A stretch of DNA of 32,918 nucleotides. It comes from an uncultured Actinomycetes bacterium. GTDB lineage: Bacteria; Actinomycetota; Actinomycetes; Nanopelagicales; Nanopelagicaceae. The translations under genes and the position numbers were made by a program. Positions 5,653-10,563 of this stretch are shown here, piece after piece. How positions within the stretch are numbered: position 1 is the stretch's first letter; every line of letters begins with the position of its first letter. The notes below the pieces were generated by a model that saw only the letters and a list, made by a program, of their open reading frames with translations, was not told where the DNA came from and searched no databases. The stretch spans positions 1-32,918 of the forward strand of contig CAIKCJ010000045.1 in NCBI GenBank assembly GCA_903825945.1, in the 5' to 3' direction.

Positions 5653-7566
5653 ATGCACTTATTTGTAGCCTCATCGCTCTCATCCCACAACCACGCCCTG
5701 ACTTCCAATCGCTTGGTCTCATCCTTGATTCCGATTGTGAAAGACCTCAACCTCATCAGTTTTCTGACGGCTATAGGAGTGCTCTATGCGATGGGATTTT
5801 TGGTTACAGAAGTTAAGGGTGCACTCACAACAGAATCACTCCGCCTTCGCTCATTAGCTGTACTTGCCACAACTATTTGGACAGTGACGGTTGTTGGTGG
5901 CTTTATGCTCGAACTAGCCAATCTGCTTGGCTCCGGATTCTTGGCCGCATTTAGCACTAGTGCCATTCATGATTTCATCACCCAATCGAGTCTTGGTCGT
6001 GATTACTTATTCCAAGTAATTGTTGGAGTAGCTGTTCTGATCGGCCTCACGCGTGTGACAAAAGTACGTGGTACGTACTTCGCGCTCGTCCTGACCGTCA
6101 TTGCCCTCATCGCTCCCGTTTTTCAGAGCCACGCCAGCAATGCTGGTAACCATGGGTTGGCGATCGGATCACTGCTCTTCCATGTGCTCTTTGCATCACT
6201 CTGGGTGGGTGGCGTCATCGGGTTAATCGTTGTTGCCCCAGCTACACGTGAACGAGCACTGCCGCGCTTTAGCTCGCTGGCATTGTGGTCTGCGATCGTG
6301 GTCGGTATCAGTGGTGTTCTCAATGCATGGACTCGACTTAATTTTGTTGCTGGTTGGCAGACCCTTTATGGGCTCCTTGTAATTCTCAAAATAGTTCTCT
6401 TTGTAGCGCTTGTCCTCATCGGTGCAAAGCATCGCTCATATATTGCATCAACCATGAGCGGATCACGGCAAGTGCTCCGGCTGCTCATCAACGAATCAGT
6501 CGTCATGATCGCTGCTGTTGCACTAGGAGGCTGGCTAAGCAGTATCGCACCTCCGACTTCGCCAAGCGCCCTAAAACTTGAAGGCAATCCGGCTATCGCA
6601 ATTACTGGAATCGCAATGCCACCAGCGCCTAATCTCACGCGCATATTTACAGCATGGTCACCTGACGGAACAGTGATTGGGTTCCTGTTAATTATTACCG
6701 CGCTTTATATTAAAGGCGTCAGAGTCTTGAGCAAGCGAGGGGATAAGTGGCCGGTTGGTCGCACGGTCTCATTTGCACTGGCCGTTGCGGCAGTGGATTT
6801 CGCAACGAGTGGTGGCCTTGGGGTCTATGCCCACTTTGCCTTCTCTGATCACATGATCGCCCACATGGTGTTGGGAATGATTGCTCCTATCGGCTTTGTG
6901 CTCAGCGCACCGATTACTTTGGCTCTACGCACTTTGCCTCAGGGTCGCACTCCCGATGAGCGCGGAATTCGCGGCACCCTCATTGCACTAATTCACTCTC
7001 GCTACTCGATGGTGATCACCAATCCCATAATCGCGCTCGCGCTCTTTGATAGCTCACTCTTTGTTCTCTATATGACGCCGCTCTTTGGAAAGTTGATGCA
7101 GAGCCATAGTGGGCATCTCTTTATGGATCTCCACTTCTTGCTCGCTGGTTATCTCTTCTTCTACGTCATTGTCGGAGTGGACCCCAACCCGAAGAAGATT
7201 CCCCATATTGTGCGGATCATCATGCTCTTTGCAGCAATGGCGATCCATGCCTTCTTCTCTGTAGCCCTGTTGTCTTCGTCAACGTTGATAGATGGCGGCT
7301 ACTTCGCTTCGCTCAATCGGCCATGGGCCACCAATTTGCTGGCAGACCAGCACTCGGGTGGAGCGATTGGTTGGGCCATGGGTGAGATTCCAATTTTGAT
7401 AGCGCTTATCGCCACCTTCATTCAATGGGTTCGAGATGATTCCCGTGAGGCTAAGAGAAGCGACCGAGCGGCAGATCGTGCCGAAGCAATGGGTGTAGAT
7501 GATGAGTTGGCTAAGTACAACAAGTACTTAGCATCACTCAATGCTCGGGATAAAAACGAGTTATAA
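5653..7566 (+). CDS. CopD / CtaG fusion, cytochrome oxidase copper assembly membrane protein
   Basis: A 637-residue multi-pass protein that joins two families. The first half (about 30-300) resembles the CopD copper-transport domain, including the helix region SHASNAGNHGLAIGSLLFH and FASLWVGGVIGL. The second half (about 330-610) is CtaG_Cox11-like (caa3 oxidase assembly), with FSDHMIAHMVLGMIAP, HFLLAGYLFFYVIVGVDPNP and the conserved DQHSGGAIGWAMGEIP. Such fusions are common in Actinobacteria and are thought to deliver copper to the terminal oxidase. The soluble charged tail is about 50 residues. It follows the CopC-like gene in the same operon. It overlaps the convergent 5-formyl-THF cyclo-ligase gene by 29 bases, which is unusual but fits a compact genome. 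No clear ribosome binding site precedes the ATG, so the start is slightly uncertain. Confidence 0.9.
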   Translation: MHLFVASSLSSHNHALTSNRLVSSLIPIVKDLNLISFLTAIGVLYAMGFLVTEVKGALTTESLRLRSLAVLATTIWTVTVVGGFMLELANLLGSGFLAAFSTSAIHDFITQSSLGRDYLFQVIVGVAVLIGLTRVTKVRGTYFALVLTVIALIAPVFQSHASNAGNHGLAIGSLLFHVLFASLWVGGVIGLIVVAPATRERALPRFSSLALWSAIVVGISGVLNAWTRLNFVAGWQTLYGLLVILKIVLFVALVLIGAKHRSYIASTMSGSRQVLRLLINESVVMIAAVALGGWLSSIAPPTSPSALKLEGNPAIAITGIAMPPAPNLTRIFTAWSPDGTVIGFLLIITALYIKGVRVLSKRGDKWPVGRTVSFALAVAAVDFATSGGLGVYAHFAFSDHMIAHMVLGMIAPIGFVLSAPITLALRTLPQGRTPDERGIRGTLIALIHSRYSMVITNPIIALALFDSSLFVLYMTPLFGKLMQSHSGHLFMDLHFLLAGYLFFYVIVGVDPNPKKIPHIVRIIMLFAAMAIHAFFSVALLSSSTLIDGGYFASLNRPWATNLLADQHSGGAIGWAMGEIPILIALIATFIQWVRDDSREAKRSDRAADRAEAMGVDDELAKYNKYLASLNARDKNEL

Positions 7567-8098
7567 GAGTTGGGGTCGCAGCGGCGTTGAGCTTCTGATC
7601 ATGCTCTTGCCTCGGAAGTAATTCACTCGAGAGCTCGCCGGCATGGATTAAACCGATCTTCCAAGCGCTTAATCGTGCTAGGGCGCGATCGTAGGAGCCG
7701 CCACCTTGCCCCATTCGGGTTCCACTGCGATCTACTCGAAGAGATGGAACGATCACGCAATCAATCTGACTCTCATCAGCCATAGCGTCGCCAATTGGCT
7801 CAAGAACCTTCCCATTTTTTCGAAGCCTGTGTGTCGAACCAGACCACTGGACCCACTCAAGATCCTTATCTGGAAGCATGCGTGGCAGAACTAAAACTTT
7901 TCCGGCCGCGAGAAGCTCCTCATTGAGATCATCTGTCCGAGGCTCGTATTCGTATGCGATGTATGTTGCAATCATCTGGGCACTCTGAAATTCGCTGGTT
8001 TGTGCGACGTGCAACCAGGATTCTTCTGTAAAGCGCAGTGCGCGGTCAGCTCGGAACTCCTTGCGGAGTTTATTTTTTGCGTCCGACTGGTTGCTCAC
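7538..8098 (-). CDS. 5-formyltetrahydrofolate cyclo-ligase
   Basis: The enzyme converts 5-formyl-THF plus ATP to 5,10-methenyl-THF and so recovers stored folate. The 186-residue length fits, and the diagnostic C-terminal motif GTRMGQGGGSYDRAL (about 126-140) is present, with the N-terminal basic KNKLRKEFRADRA. The start is GTG at 8098, six bases after TAGGCT (8110-8105), suggesting a leaderless message. It is divergent from the MoeA-like gene. In many Actinobacteria this gene is followed by galU and then glp; galU is absent here. Confidence 0.93.
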   Translation of the reverse strand: MSNQSDAKNKLRKEFRADRALRFTEESWLHVAQTSEFQSAQMIATYIAYEYEPRTDDLNEELLAAGKVLVLPRMLPDKDLEWVQWSGSTHRLRKNGKVLEPIGDAMADESQIDCVIVPSLRVDRSGTRMGQGGGSYDRALARLSAWKIGLIHAGELSSELLPRQEHDQKLNAAATPTLITRFYPEH

Positions 8099-8167: not shown

Positions 8168-9136
8168 ATGAATGTGGAAGTTGTTGCACCCCAAGTAAGC
8201 GGCAATGCCGCATCTGTTTCTGCTATTTCGGTCTCAGCCTTGGCAGAAGCACTCCTTGAGATTGCTCGCCCACTAGAAGCCTTCGATATGCCACTTCTCG
8301 ACGCACACGGTGCGACCTTGGCCGAGGATATTTTTGCCGGCGAACGATTGGTACTTCGCAAGGGATCTCGTATTCGTTCCACCCAGATTGGATTAGCAGC
8401 ATCGATCGGTCTTTCTCGTCTGCCAACCCAGCCGCACCCACGAGTCGTGGTGATCTCAGCTGGAGATGATCTAGTTGAGCCCGGTCATCCGTTGGTAAGC
8501 GATGAGGAAGAGTTTGAGACTAATTCTTGGCTGCTGACTACAGCGGTCAAAGAAGCTGGCGCGGTGGGTTATCGAGTTCACACAATTCCCGAAAATCATG
8601 CCCAGCTCAAAGCGATCATTGAAGACCAGCTAGTGCGGGCCGACTTGATGGTTATTAGCGGTGAAAGTCACGATGGCTCTGTCGAGTTAATCGAAGCCGT
8701 TCTGCGCGAGATGGGGAGCATTACCAGCGTTATTCCATCACTTGAGGGCAGCTCGCGCCATAACTTCGGCACGATTGGTGAGGATAAGGTCCCAGTTCTC
8801 ACGCTTCCTGGAGATACCGTTTCTGCCTTCCTTTCATGCGAACTCTTTATTCGCCCCATGATTAGGCGCATGTTGGGAGCCTCCAGCATCTATCGCCCCA
8901 CCATCAAGGCGAGGATTACTTCCAATGTGGAATCTCCGATCGGGGAGACTTCCCTCATCAGGGCCACGTTATCGGATGCTAATGAAAATGGCGCTCGCAC
9001 AGTCACGCCGCTCTCGCATCAAGGGGAGATCTTTACCCTCTCTGATGCACATGCACTCATTGCAATTCCAGCAGATTCACCCGGAGCCCTCGTAGGCGAA
9101 GCGGTTGATGTGCTTGTGTTGGATCGAATCAGTTAG
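8168..9136 (+). CDS. Reduced MoeA/gephyrin-like protein (Glp type), probably non-catalytic
   Basis: The protein matches molybdopterin molybdotransferase MoeA but has only 322 residues where about 400 are usual. After DAHGATLAEDIFAGERLVLRKG (about 45-66) the chain runs directly into IRSTQIGLAASIGL. The segment that in MoeA carries domain II and its conserved acidic motifs is therefore missing. The MPT-binding domain is recognisable (SAGDDLVEPG 97-106, FETNSWLL), but the GGxSxGxxD motif reads SGESHDGS (164-171) and LPGNP reads LPGDT (213-217). Catalysis of molybdate insertion is therefore unlikely. The next genes are a RimJ-type acetyltransferase and a SepX/GlpR-like membrane protein. In Corynebacterium and Streptomyces this cluster encodes a gephyrin-like FtsZ-binding protein and its membrane receptor. 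I infer a cell-division scaffold. Confidence 0.8.
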   Translation: MNVEVVAPQVSGNAASVSAISVSALAEALLEIARPLEAFDMPLLDAHGATLAEDIFAGERLVLRKGSRIRSTQIGLAASIGLSRLPTQPHPRVVVISAGDDLVEPGHPLVSDEEEFETNSWLLTTAVKEAGAVGYRVHTIPENHAQLKAIIEDQLVRADLMVISGESHDGSVELIEAVLREMGSITSVIPSLEGSSRHNFGTIGEDKVPVLTLPGDTVSAFLSCELFIRPMIRRMLGASSIYRPTIKARITSNVESPIGETSLIRATLSDANENGARTVTPLSHQGEIFTLSDAHALIAIPADSPGALVGEAVDVLVLDRIS

Positions 9137-9148
9137 CGCAGCCACACG

Positions 9149-9721
9149 ATGCGCGAAGGCTGGCCTATAAAGATCACGGATCGTGAAATAACGCTTCGAC
9201 CTTTGCGCTACCGCGATAAAGCGCGATGGGATCGAGTTCGAGCAGCCAACGCACAGTGGCTCGCACCGTGGGAAGCGACTAGACCACCTATAGATCCCGA
9301 CCAACTCCTCCCAACTTTTTACGGAATGGTGAGCCATCTCAACCGCCAAGCGCGCCAAGGTCGAGGGCTCGCTTTCGGAATTTGGATCCAGGTTGATGGA
9401 GTGGATTACTTAGCTGGCCAAATCACTTTGGGTGGAATCGTGATGGGCGCTTACCGTGGTGCGCATATCGGTTATTGGATCGATCAACGATTTGCGAGTA
9501 AGGGATATGTCACCCGAGCAGTCCGCGCGCTAACAGAGTTCGCTTTCACGGATCTGAAATTACATCGAATCGAAATCAATCTTCGTCCAGAGAATGCTGC
9601 ATCGGCTCGAGTCGCCCAGAAAAGTGGATATGTTTTTGAGGGAGTGCGTCCTCGCTTTTTACATATCGCAGGAGAATGGCGCGACCACCTGACGTACGTC
9701 GCAGAAAACCCTAATCTTTAA
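9149..9721 (+). CDS. GNAT acetyltransferase, RimJ/RimL type
   Basis: A 190-residue GNAT-fold protein with the RimJ/RimL-like elements ITLRPLRYRDKARW, the acetyl-CoA loop region YWIDQRFASKGYVTRAVRAL (motif A, about 112-131), and HRIEINLRPENAASARVAQK with SGYVFEG (about 143-172). The family acetylates N-termini of ribosomal or other proteins; the target here is unknown. The start is 12 bases after the Glp-like stop, so it is in the same operon. It sits between glp-like and sepX-like genes, an arrangement conserved in Actinobacteria, which raises the possibility that it modifies a division protein. That is inference. Confidence 0.9.
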   Translation: MREGWPIKITDREITLRPLRYRDKARWDRVRAANAQWLAPWEATRPPIDPDQLLPTFYGMVSHLNRQARQGRGLAFGIWIQVDGVDYLAGQITLGGIVMGAYRGAHIGYWIDQRFASKGYVTRAVRALTEFAFTDLKLHRIEINLRPENAASARVAQKSGYVFEGVRPRFLHIAGEWRDHLTYVAENPNL

Positions 9722-9781
9722 GTTGAGAGTTCGCTAGGCTCAAAATGCGCTCAAATCCACCGATTTAACCCATATCTGACC

Positions 9782-9787
9782 TACAGT
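9782..9787 (+). promoter_or_regulatory. -10 box TACAGT for the SepX-like gene
   Basis: TACAGT ends eight bases before the ATG at 9796. Despite its place behind the acetyltransferase gene, the SepX-like gene could therefore have its own start of transcription. Confidence 0.4.
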
Positions 9788-9795
9788 TTCATTCC

Positions 9796-10563
9796 ATGGC
9801 CTCGGGTTTGATTTATCTCATCATCCTCATGATGTGGGGTGCCTACTTTGTTCCTCGCTGGATGTCACAACATGACACTACGTCGGGTCGAGCAACTGCG
9901 CGTTACAAGAGTGCAATGAAAGTAGTTGCATCAACTCCAAATATTCCAGAAGCAATTGATCCAGATAAAAAACTTCGAGAACTGCGCAAGCGCCAAACAA
10001 TTACAACGTCACTTCTGCTTCTCACTTTTACTGTTGCAATCAGTGCGCTTGCCGGAATTCTTCCACTTGCGATCACTCTCGTTCCACTTACTGCGACAGC
10101 AATTTATTTTGTACATATTCGCCGGCAAGTAGTTGCTGCACAATTAAAGAAGCGTCGCCTCAAGGCGCTGGCACAAATTAGCGCAGCAGAAGTTAAGCGC
10201 GATCCTTCAGCTCGTATCTCGCTCTCACCACGCGGTTATGTTGCAGGTACGCAATCAACAGATCATTGGATTCCACTATCAGAGCGCGTAGAGTCTCAAT
10301 CCATCACAATCATTCCGCGTGAAGATTCATTTGCACCAATTACAGCTGCAACCTGGTCACCAGTAGCAGTGCCACGACCTACATACACAACTGCTCCGAA
10401 AGCAATTCACTCCCAACGCACAATTGACCTCACAGTGCCTGGTGCATGGAGCGCAGAACAAGAGCGTATTGCAGCTCTTGAAACTCAATCACGTGATGAG
10501 ATCTTTGATCAGGAGTTAGCCGAGCAAGCAGCGGTAATTCGCGATCAAGCCGCCAACCAATAA
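9796..10563 (+). CDS. SepX/GlpR-like membrane protein, probable cell-division factor
   Basis: The N-terminus MASGLIYLIILMMWGAYFVP followed by RW matches the signature of actinobacterial SepX/GlpR proteins: one helix at 4-20, then basic residues and ARYKSAMKVV. Two further helices lie at about 70-88 and 90-108, followed by a basic juxtamembrane stretch (IRRQVVAAQLKKRRLK) and a polar cytoplasmic tail of about 140 residues. Family members act in division septum function in Streptomyces and as the receptor for the gephyrin-like Glp in Corynebacterium. The Glp-like and RimJ-like genes directly upstream make the assignment strong. The tail ends in an acidic, coiled-coil-like region (QERIAALETQSRDEIFDQEL). 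It converges with pmt, 21 bases apart. Confidence 0.8.
   Translation: MASGLIYLIILMMWGAYFVPRWMSQHDTTSGRATARYKSAMKVVASTPNIPEAIDPDKKLRELRKRQTITTSLLLLTFTVAISALAGILPLAITLVPLTATAIYFVHIRRQVVAAQLKKRRLKALAQISAAEVKRDPSARISLSPRGYVAGTQSTDHWIPLSERVESQSITIIPREDSFAPITAATWSPVAVPRPTYTTAPKAIHSQRTIDLTVPGAWSAEQERIAALETQSRDEIFDQELAEQAAVIRDQAANQ

Follow-up and report, generated by a model that had tools for sequence, protein, structure and literature searches.

The closest described counterpart of the protein studied here is Glp of Corynebacterium glutamicum (Cgl0883; PDB 8bve/8bvf), a MoeA-derived, gephyrin-like cell division protein whose FtsZ-binding loop is defined in PMC10522489. According to that report, hinge prolines mark Glp, FtsZ and the membrane protein GlpR require the same Glp loop, and the first loop of GlpR spans residues 27-218 with an isoelectric point (pI) of 4.05. 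The counterpart of GlpR in Streptomyces venezuelae is SepX (PMC8748795). We analyzed the corresponding locus in a 32,918-nucleotide stretch of DNA (hereafter the window; GenBank assembly GCA_903825945.1, 1.26 Mb, contig CAIKCJ010000045.1) of an uncultured actinomycete of the family Nanopelagicaceae, order Nanopelagicales. The window encodes a Glp of 322 residues (8168..9136, + strand) that lacks domain II, and with it half of the former active site, and is probably a vertically inherited Glp turned into a pure protein scaffold, acting in division together with GlpR.

This reduced Glp resembles that of C. glutamicum in its membership of a common clade, in its hinge prolines, in the location of glpR two genes further on, and in the predicted fold of domains I, III and IV. 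It differs in the absence of domain II (approx. C. glutamicum positions 40-150), in the loss of M361, Y369 and L370, and in the remodelled motifs of domain III. Read as a scaffold, it reveals what is left of a repurposed enzyme, in small genomes, once only the second job remains, and would be a minimal protein for studies of structure and binding. We recognized no description of a Glp without domain II in the literature searched, mostly outside subscription papers. The main texts of PMC10522489 and PMC11733289 mention neither 'Nanopelagic' nor 'moaC', and the terms 'domain II' and 'truncat' do not occur in the second of these papers.

Identification of the reduced Glp and loss of the catalytic signature

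Among the NCBIfam models, Glp_gephyrin matched the 322-residue protein best (E = 8.3e-73, 245.4 bits), over model positions 138-403 of 403, with MoeA_actino in second place (172.2 bits). Both curated cut-offs (475 and 560, respectively) were missed because approximately one third of the model is absent from the protein. In Pfam, MoCF_biosynth (residues 95-233) and MoeA_C (247-318) were recognized above their cut-offs, and MoeA_N, which covers domains I and II, matched just 22 residues, below its cut-off. An E value of 8e-73, together with the presence of the same architecture throughout the order, means that the similarity is not due to chance.

The glp gene is followed on the same strand by a gene for a GNAT acetyltransferase of 190 residues (9149..9721), for which RimJ was the best NCBIfam model (7.9e-19, below its cut-off), and then by a gene for a GlpR/SepX-like membrane protein of 255 residues (9796..10563). 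The latter matched SepX_GlpR_2 (NF050099) with E = 2e-27 and 96.7 bits (cut-off 150), and no Pfam family was assigned to it. A first-pass annotation, made from the letters of the window, had placed the three open reading frames (ORFs) at these coordinates and had named their products as a MoeA-type protein without domain II, a RimJ-type acetyltransferase and a SepX/GlpR-like protein; ORF calls, profiles and alignment bear this out, each homology being that of the best NCBIfam model at a score below its cut-off. The SepX/GlpR homology on which that proposal had been made to depend was thus found.

The alignment comprised 67 reduced Glps (picked by length, 280-339 residues), 10 MoeAs and 21 Glps of full length. 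Over half of the reduced proteins had gaps at C. glutamicum positions 40-150. The junction left by the missing domain lies between A57 and G58 of the window protein (8336..8341, + strand, as placed by the alignment). Profiles, alignment and structure model agree that the four-domain architecture of MoeA is incomplete in the window Glp, domain II being absent.

The residues D59, T100, D142, E188 and D228 were used as the catalytic set, as named in the titles of E. coli MoeA mutants. The columns of D59, T100 and D142 were gaps in all 67 reduced Glps, and that of E188 was occupied by D in 64 of them, so the catalytic signature of the MoeA molybdenum insertase is not kept. We take D259 and PGNP to be further active-site positions of MoeA. 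The GGxSxGxxD motif of the former molybdopterin site is replaced by SGESHDGS (8657..8680, + strand). Where MoeA has LPGNP, the window protein has LPGDT (8804..8818, + strand). Both motifs are present as first annotated, and since SGE(S/R)xDxSF-like and LPGD motifs recur across the reduced clade, they are not sequencing errors. Compared with MoeA, the E domain of gephyrin and Cnx1E, the reduced Glps lack domain II with D59, T100 and D142, and carry PGD(P/T) in place of PGNP and SGExxDxS in place of GGxSxGxxD.

The hinge prolines are those of a Glp. The prolines of hinge 2 (LPTQPHPR in the window, 8420..8443, + strand) at C. glutamicum positions 182 and 184 were both present in every reduced (67/67) and every full-length Glp (21/21), whereas none of the 10 MoeAs had the pair; the hinge 1 proline at position 17 was found in 61 reduced and all 21 full-length Glps. 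The predicted structure of the window Glp had a predicted local distance difference test (pLDDT) score of 88.4, and 299 of its residues could be aligned to 8bve.

The reduced gene is under strong purifying selection. The ratio of nonsynonymous to synonymous substitution rates (dN/dS) of glp was 0.064 and 0.069 in comparisons with two related loci (L192 and L193, respectively), more distant pairs being saturated; for glpR it was 0.10-0.14.

Distribution, descent and separation from molybdenum cofactor genes

In a sample of 201 genomes of the order (108 near-complete), the Glp model was matched in 196, of which just four, belonging to the genera g6 and g40, reached the full-length cut-off; the five genomes without a match were 72-89% complete. 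Among the matches listed, with 32 chosen genomes re-inspected, the reduced Glps start near model position 138, apart from fragmentary and MoeA-only cases. All 108 near-complete genomes had a match, two of them (G125 and G140) only through MoeA-like pieces. Genomes assembled into a single contig, among them G060-G064 and G066, showed the same reduced architecture.

A search of named contigs revealed 550 relatives, including Ca. Planktophila versatilis and a Ca. Nanopelagicales bacterium. The best 80 of the 550 were all reduced (301-347 residues) and encoded by intact long ORFs; being the top matches to a reduced query, they show conservation and not frequency. In 73 of these 80 contigs the gene order was MTHFS-glp-rimJ-glpR, in which the oppositely oriented gene for 5-formyltetrahydrofolate cyclo-ligase (MTHFS; 7538..8098, - strand in the window) forms a conserved upstream flank. 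Five contigs without glpR stop 0-177 bases past rimJ, and two without MTHFS start 213 and 238 bases before glp. Neither moaC nor mogA was found in the 80 contigs. The glpR gene was located two genes downstream of glp in the window, in 20/20 reduced loci and in all 75 contigs reaching that far, and a GlpR match was obtained in 34 of the 37 genomes sampled from the family, including that of the window. The module which the first-pass annotation had proposed is thus maintained across the reduced loci examined.

Phylogenetic trees were built on shared columns, with 21 of the 67 reduced rows in the first tree and 8 in a second, more careful one. The Glps, including that of the window, were separated from canonical MoeA with Shimodaira-Hasegawa-like approximate likelihood ratio test (SH-aLRT) support of 99 in the first tree and 100/98 in the second. 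The reduced Glps were monophyletic (100 and 100/100, respectively) and joined the full-length Glps of g6/g40 (96 and 100/98). Long-branch warnings were issued for C. glutamicum in the first tree and for L143, E. coli MoeA and the canonical MoeAs in the second. Since the reduced Glps form one clade next to the full-length Glps of g6/g40, domain II was lost in a single change. The g6/g40 proteins (L125-L128) are closest to the window Glp in the tree and share its flanking gene families; they differ in their length (404-405 residues), in a complete active-site signature (10/10) and in having moaC adjoining glp. In a wider sample of 296 genomes of the class, 221 exceeded the Glp cut-off, and the 75 below it comprised 28 genomes of this family and 47 others; G040, the sole one of these 47 to be inspected, has a full-length Glp (L143).

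The window genome encodes molybdenum cofactor (Moco) proteins elsewhere. Profile matches on contig C47 (L172) identified MogA, MoaE and MoaC, and the same contig carries a separate MoeA of 386 residues with an intact signature (DTEEDDPGNP), as well as MoaA-like and ModA/ModB-like genes read by eye. This answers the question, raised at first annotation, of whether a second complete MoeA exists: it does, and the reduced Glp is not the sole MoeA-type protein of a complete Moco pathway. A 793-residue protein, with neighbours of 175 and 289 residues, is encoded beside these Moco genes, and by eye the three resemble carbon monoxide dehydrogenase (CODH)-type subunits. At another locus with MoaC (L190, 332-2257), MoeA lies within a 641-residue ORF, a possible fusion.

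The 37 family genomes were searched for PF00994 (the MoCF domain) and MoaC. In 23 of them (11 with a completeness of 90% or more and a contamination of 5% or less), the reduced Glp, without its domain II, was the sole PF00994 match and MoaC was not matched; the lack of a second PF00994 protein also means that there was no MogA match. Twelve genomes had three or four PF00994 proteins, 11 of them together with MoaC, and two had none. Across the order, MoaC was found in 61/201 genomes and in 40 of the 108 near-complete ones, all of which matched the Glp model. The reduced Glp is therefore retained where Moco synthesis has apparently gone. The separate MoeA and Moco genes of the window genome, together with the 23 family genomes without a MoaC match, make a molybdenum role for the reduced Glp unlikely.

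The scaffold reading, its partners and its rivals

According to the reading that we favour, an ancestor of the family would have encoded a Glp of full length whose active site was intact, the locus order being glp-moaC-mogA-rimJ-glpR. Excision of domain II would have taken place on the stem leading to the reduced clade, and moaC-mogA would have left the locus on that same stem, molybdenum insertion being carried out, where needed, by a separate MoeA. The remaining domains I, III and IV, with the hinge prolines, would form a MoeA-type homodimer that docks on membrane GlpR and links GlpR to the FtsZ ring.

The putative membrane partner occupies the same place by glp as GlpR of C. glutamicum and SepX of S. 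venezuelae (PMC10522489 and PMC8748795), and resembles them in its N-terminal and second hydrophobic stretches and in its putative cytoplasmic loop and tail; model NF050099 was matched at a score below its cut-off. It differs from C. glutamicum GlpR in its first loop, which is short (46 residues) and basic (pI 10.6). GlpR/SepX proteins have three membrane helices and two disordered cytoplasmic regions. In the window protein the loop lies between hydrophobic residues 1-20 and 67-109, the second stretch being long enough, on hydropathy, for two helices, and a tail of 146 residues follows. The tail contains the motif WxPxxVPxPTY (10354..10386, + strand), of which W187, P189, P193, P195 and Y197 were invariant in 32 aligned GlpRs. 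The motif was also present in 12 of the 17 outgroup GlpR loci inspected (within L035-L052), where ORFs already holding PxPTY were examined. The GlpR tails of family f4 carry DDEDPxFEHL or a similar sequence, and WxPxxVPxPTY was not seen in those inspected. Because FtsZ and GlpR of C. glutamicum need the same Glp loop, we considered whether VPxPTY mimics the VPDF of the FtsZ tail. Given its absence from the f4 GlpRs inspected and an R at the middle hydrophobic position in the window, the mimicry was not adopted as an explanation and stands as no more than an idea.

The C-terminal tail of FtsZ was examined at 37 loci, of which 16 belong to the reduced lineage (within L113-L124 and L165-L171) and 21 do not. 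All 16 tails of the reduced lineage ended in P-D-F-M; the residue three positions ahead of the proline was I in 15 of them and L in the remaining one. The tails of the other loci, including that of G036 from the same family, were mostly LDVPDFL, with M in two. The lineage carrying the reduced Glp has thus exchanged LDVPDFLK for what is mostly IDVPDFMK. A tail that is kept yet altered is compatible with co-evolution.

Several observations weigh against the scaffold reading, or against its FtsZ arm. In the reduced Glps, conservation is lowest in domain IV, which bears the loop for FtsZ and GlpR in C. glutamicum; its mean pairwise identity was 0.36, and values were lower still for the FtsZ-binding hairpin (0.32) and the FtsZ-contact positions (0.22); after thinning to 21 reduced rows they were 0.30, 0.24 and 0.17, respectively, compared with 0.46, 0.44 and 0.34 in full-length Glps. 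The signature residue Y369 is replaced, most commonly by a gap (24 of the 67), L (18), P (9) or R (7). Superposed with VIA-align, the model of the monomer lies closer to MoeA, Cnx1E and gephyrin (root-mean-square deviation 2.1-2.8) than to the open C. glutamicum Glp (3.5), although the sequence identity of the window Glp is higher to the latter than to these better-fitting proteins. The near-complete genomes G125 and G140, both MoaC-positive, gave MoeA-like matches only, no reduced Glp being found in them, and we found no functional data for this lineage.

The hairpin equivalent to the FtsZ-binding loop of C. glutamicum (8969..9001, + strand) could be placed with uncertainty, as it is poorly conserved. 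Position 361, M in C. glutamicum, was S in 31/67 reduced Glps, and the loop residues M361 and Y369 are not kept. M361 is not general in full-length Glps either: among 40 such loci (L125-L144 and L302-L321; our own selection among the matches listed, in which seven f4 loci were included deliberately), it was common to C. glutamicum and the seven f4 Glps only, so the published loop marks that group and not every Glp. With domain IV least conserved and Y369 replaced, binding of FtsZ in the published way can only be inferred. The earlier proposal that this lineage kept the scaffold role and dropped molybdenum chemistry thus holds for the lost active site and stays a conjecture as to a scaffold role like that of C. 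glutamicum. The accompanying claim, that this lineage displays a minimal partner in division, is left a plausible interpretation by the variable hairpin and contact positions.

These features make it conceivable, if on balance unlikely, that the reduced Glp works with GlpR at the membrane but has ceased to bind FtsZ by way of the groove in domain IV; the conserved surface would then be that of domains I and III, freshly exposed by the loss of domain II. The retention of glpR beside the gene, the replaced Y369 and the variable hairpin would fit this alternative, as would the remnants of domain I, which are better conserved in reduced Glps (identity 0.76 and 0.68; 0.71 and 0.62 after thinning) than in full-length ones (0.48 and 0.49). 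On the other hand, the equivalents of the pocket residues V338, L360 and F414 remain mostly hydrophobic, and the FtsZ tail was both kept and changed in the same lineage, a state compatible with co-evolution. We consider it improbable that the protein acts outside division through a new ligand or partner bound in its remodelled domain III pocket (SAGDDLVEPG, SGExxDxSF, LPGDP). The altered motifs are strongly conserved, which decay alone would not yield; however, glpR lies downstream in every examined reduced locus reaching that far, and the packing of domain III in the dimer may account for the conservation on structural grounds.

An insertase that remains active without domain II has next to no probability in our estimate. 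Two prolines of PGNP persist, P298 in 67/67 and P301 in 57/67, as do some acidic domain III residues, but the gapped D59, T100 and D142 columns, D at E188 and the 23 family genomes without a match to MoaC or to a second PF00994 protein led us to reject an active or cryptic molybdenum enzyme, and the window genome has an intact MoeA besides. A pseudogene or an assembly artefact is equally hard to credit: no point in its favour was found, and the architecture repeated in single-contig genomes, the intact ORFs in 80/80 contigs and a dN/dS of approximately 0.07 contradict it.

Full-length Glps and the moaC neighbourhood

In 29 of the 40 full-length loci moaC was present, and all 29 Glps had 9-10 of the 10 active-site residues. 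In 10 loci moaC was lacking, and the Glps had 4-8 of these residues. L134 (10/10 residues) was left unlabelled, as it lies at a contig edge with a moaC fragment (G049:C81:2-184), and C. glutamicum was set as lacking moaC from the locus-tag order in PMC10522489. The moaC label changed four times on the tree, with just two independent pairs on well-supported branches (p 0.5), a number too small for testing; the link between moaC neighbourhood and active site is a pattern and not a significant result. It makes the question 'moonlighting or repurposed?' directly testable and suggests that the Glps of many Actinomycetes may moonlight.

MoaC was present in seven genomes of the class, 72-100% complete (G041, G043, G044, G049, G050, G052 and G058), whose sole PF00994 matches were Glp and a MogA-type protein beside moaC or its fragment. 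The low active-site conservation reported in the earlier Glp study is perhaps due to its sampling. We tentatively propose, as a possibility short of even odds, that many actinomycete Glps are working molybdenum insertases moonlighting in division, and that scaffold-only Glps arose several times, each where moaC-mogA left the glp locus: in the group of C. glutamicum through point changes, and in Nanopelagicales through the excision of domain II, accompanied by a remodelled surface of domains I and III and maybe new partner binding. With an origin by such an excision, the reduced Glp would be a natural separation-of-function mutant. Decoupling from Moco has also occurred without the loss of domain II, as in L143 (G040) and L132 (G047), which are full-length, lack moaC and retain 4 and 6 of the 10 active-site residues, respectively.

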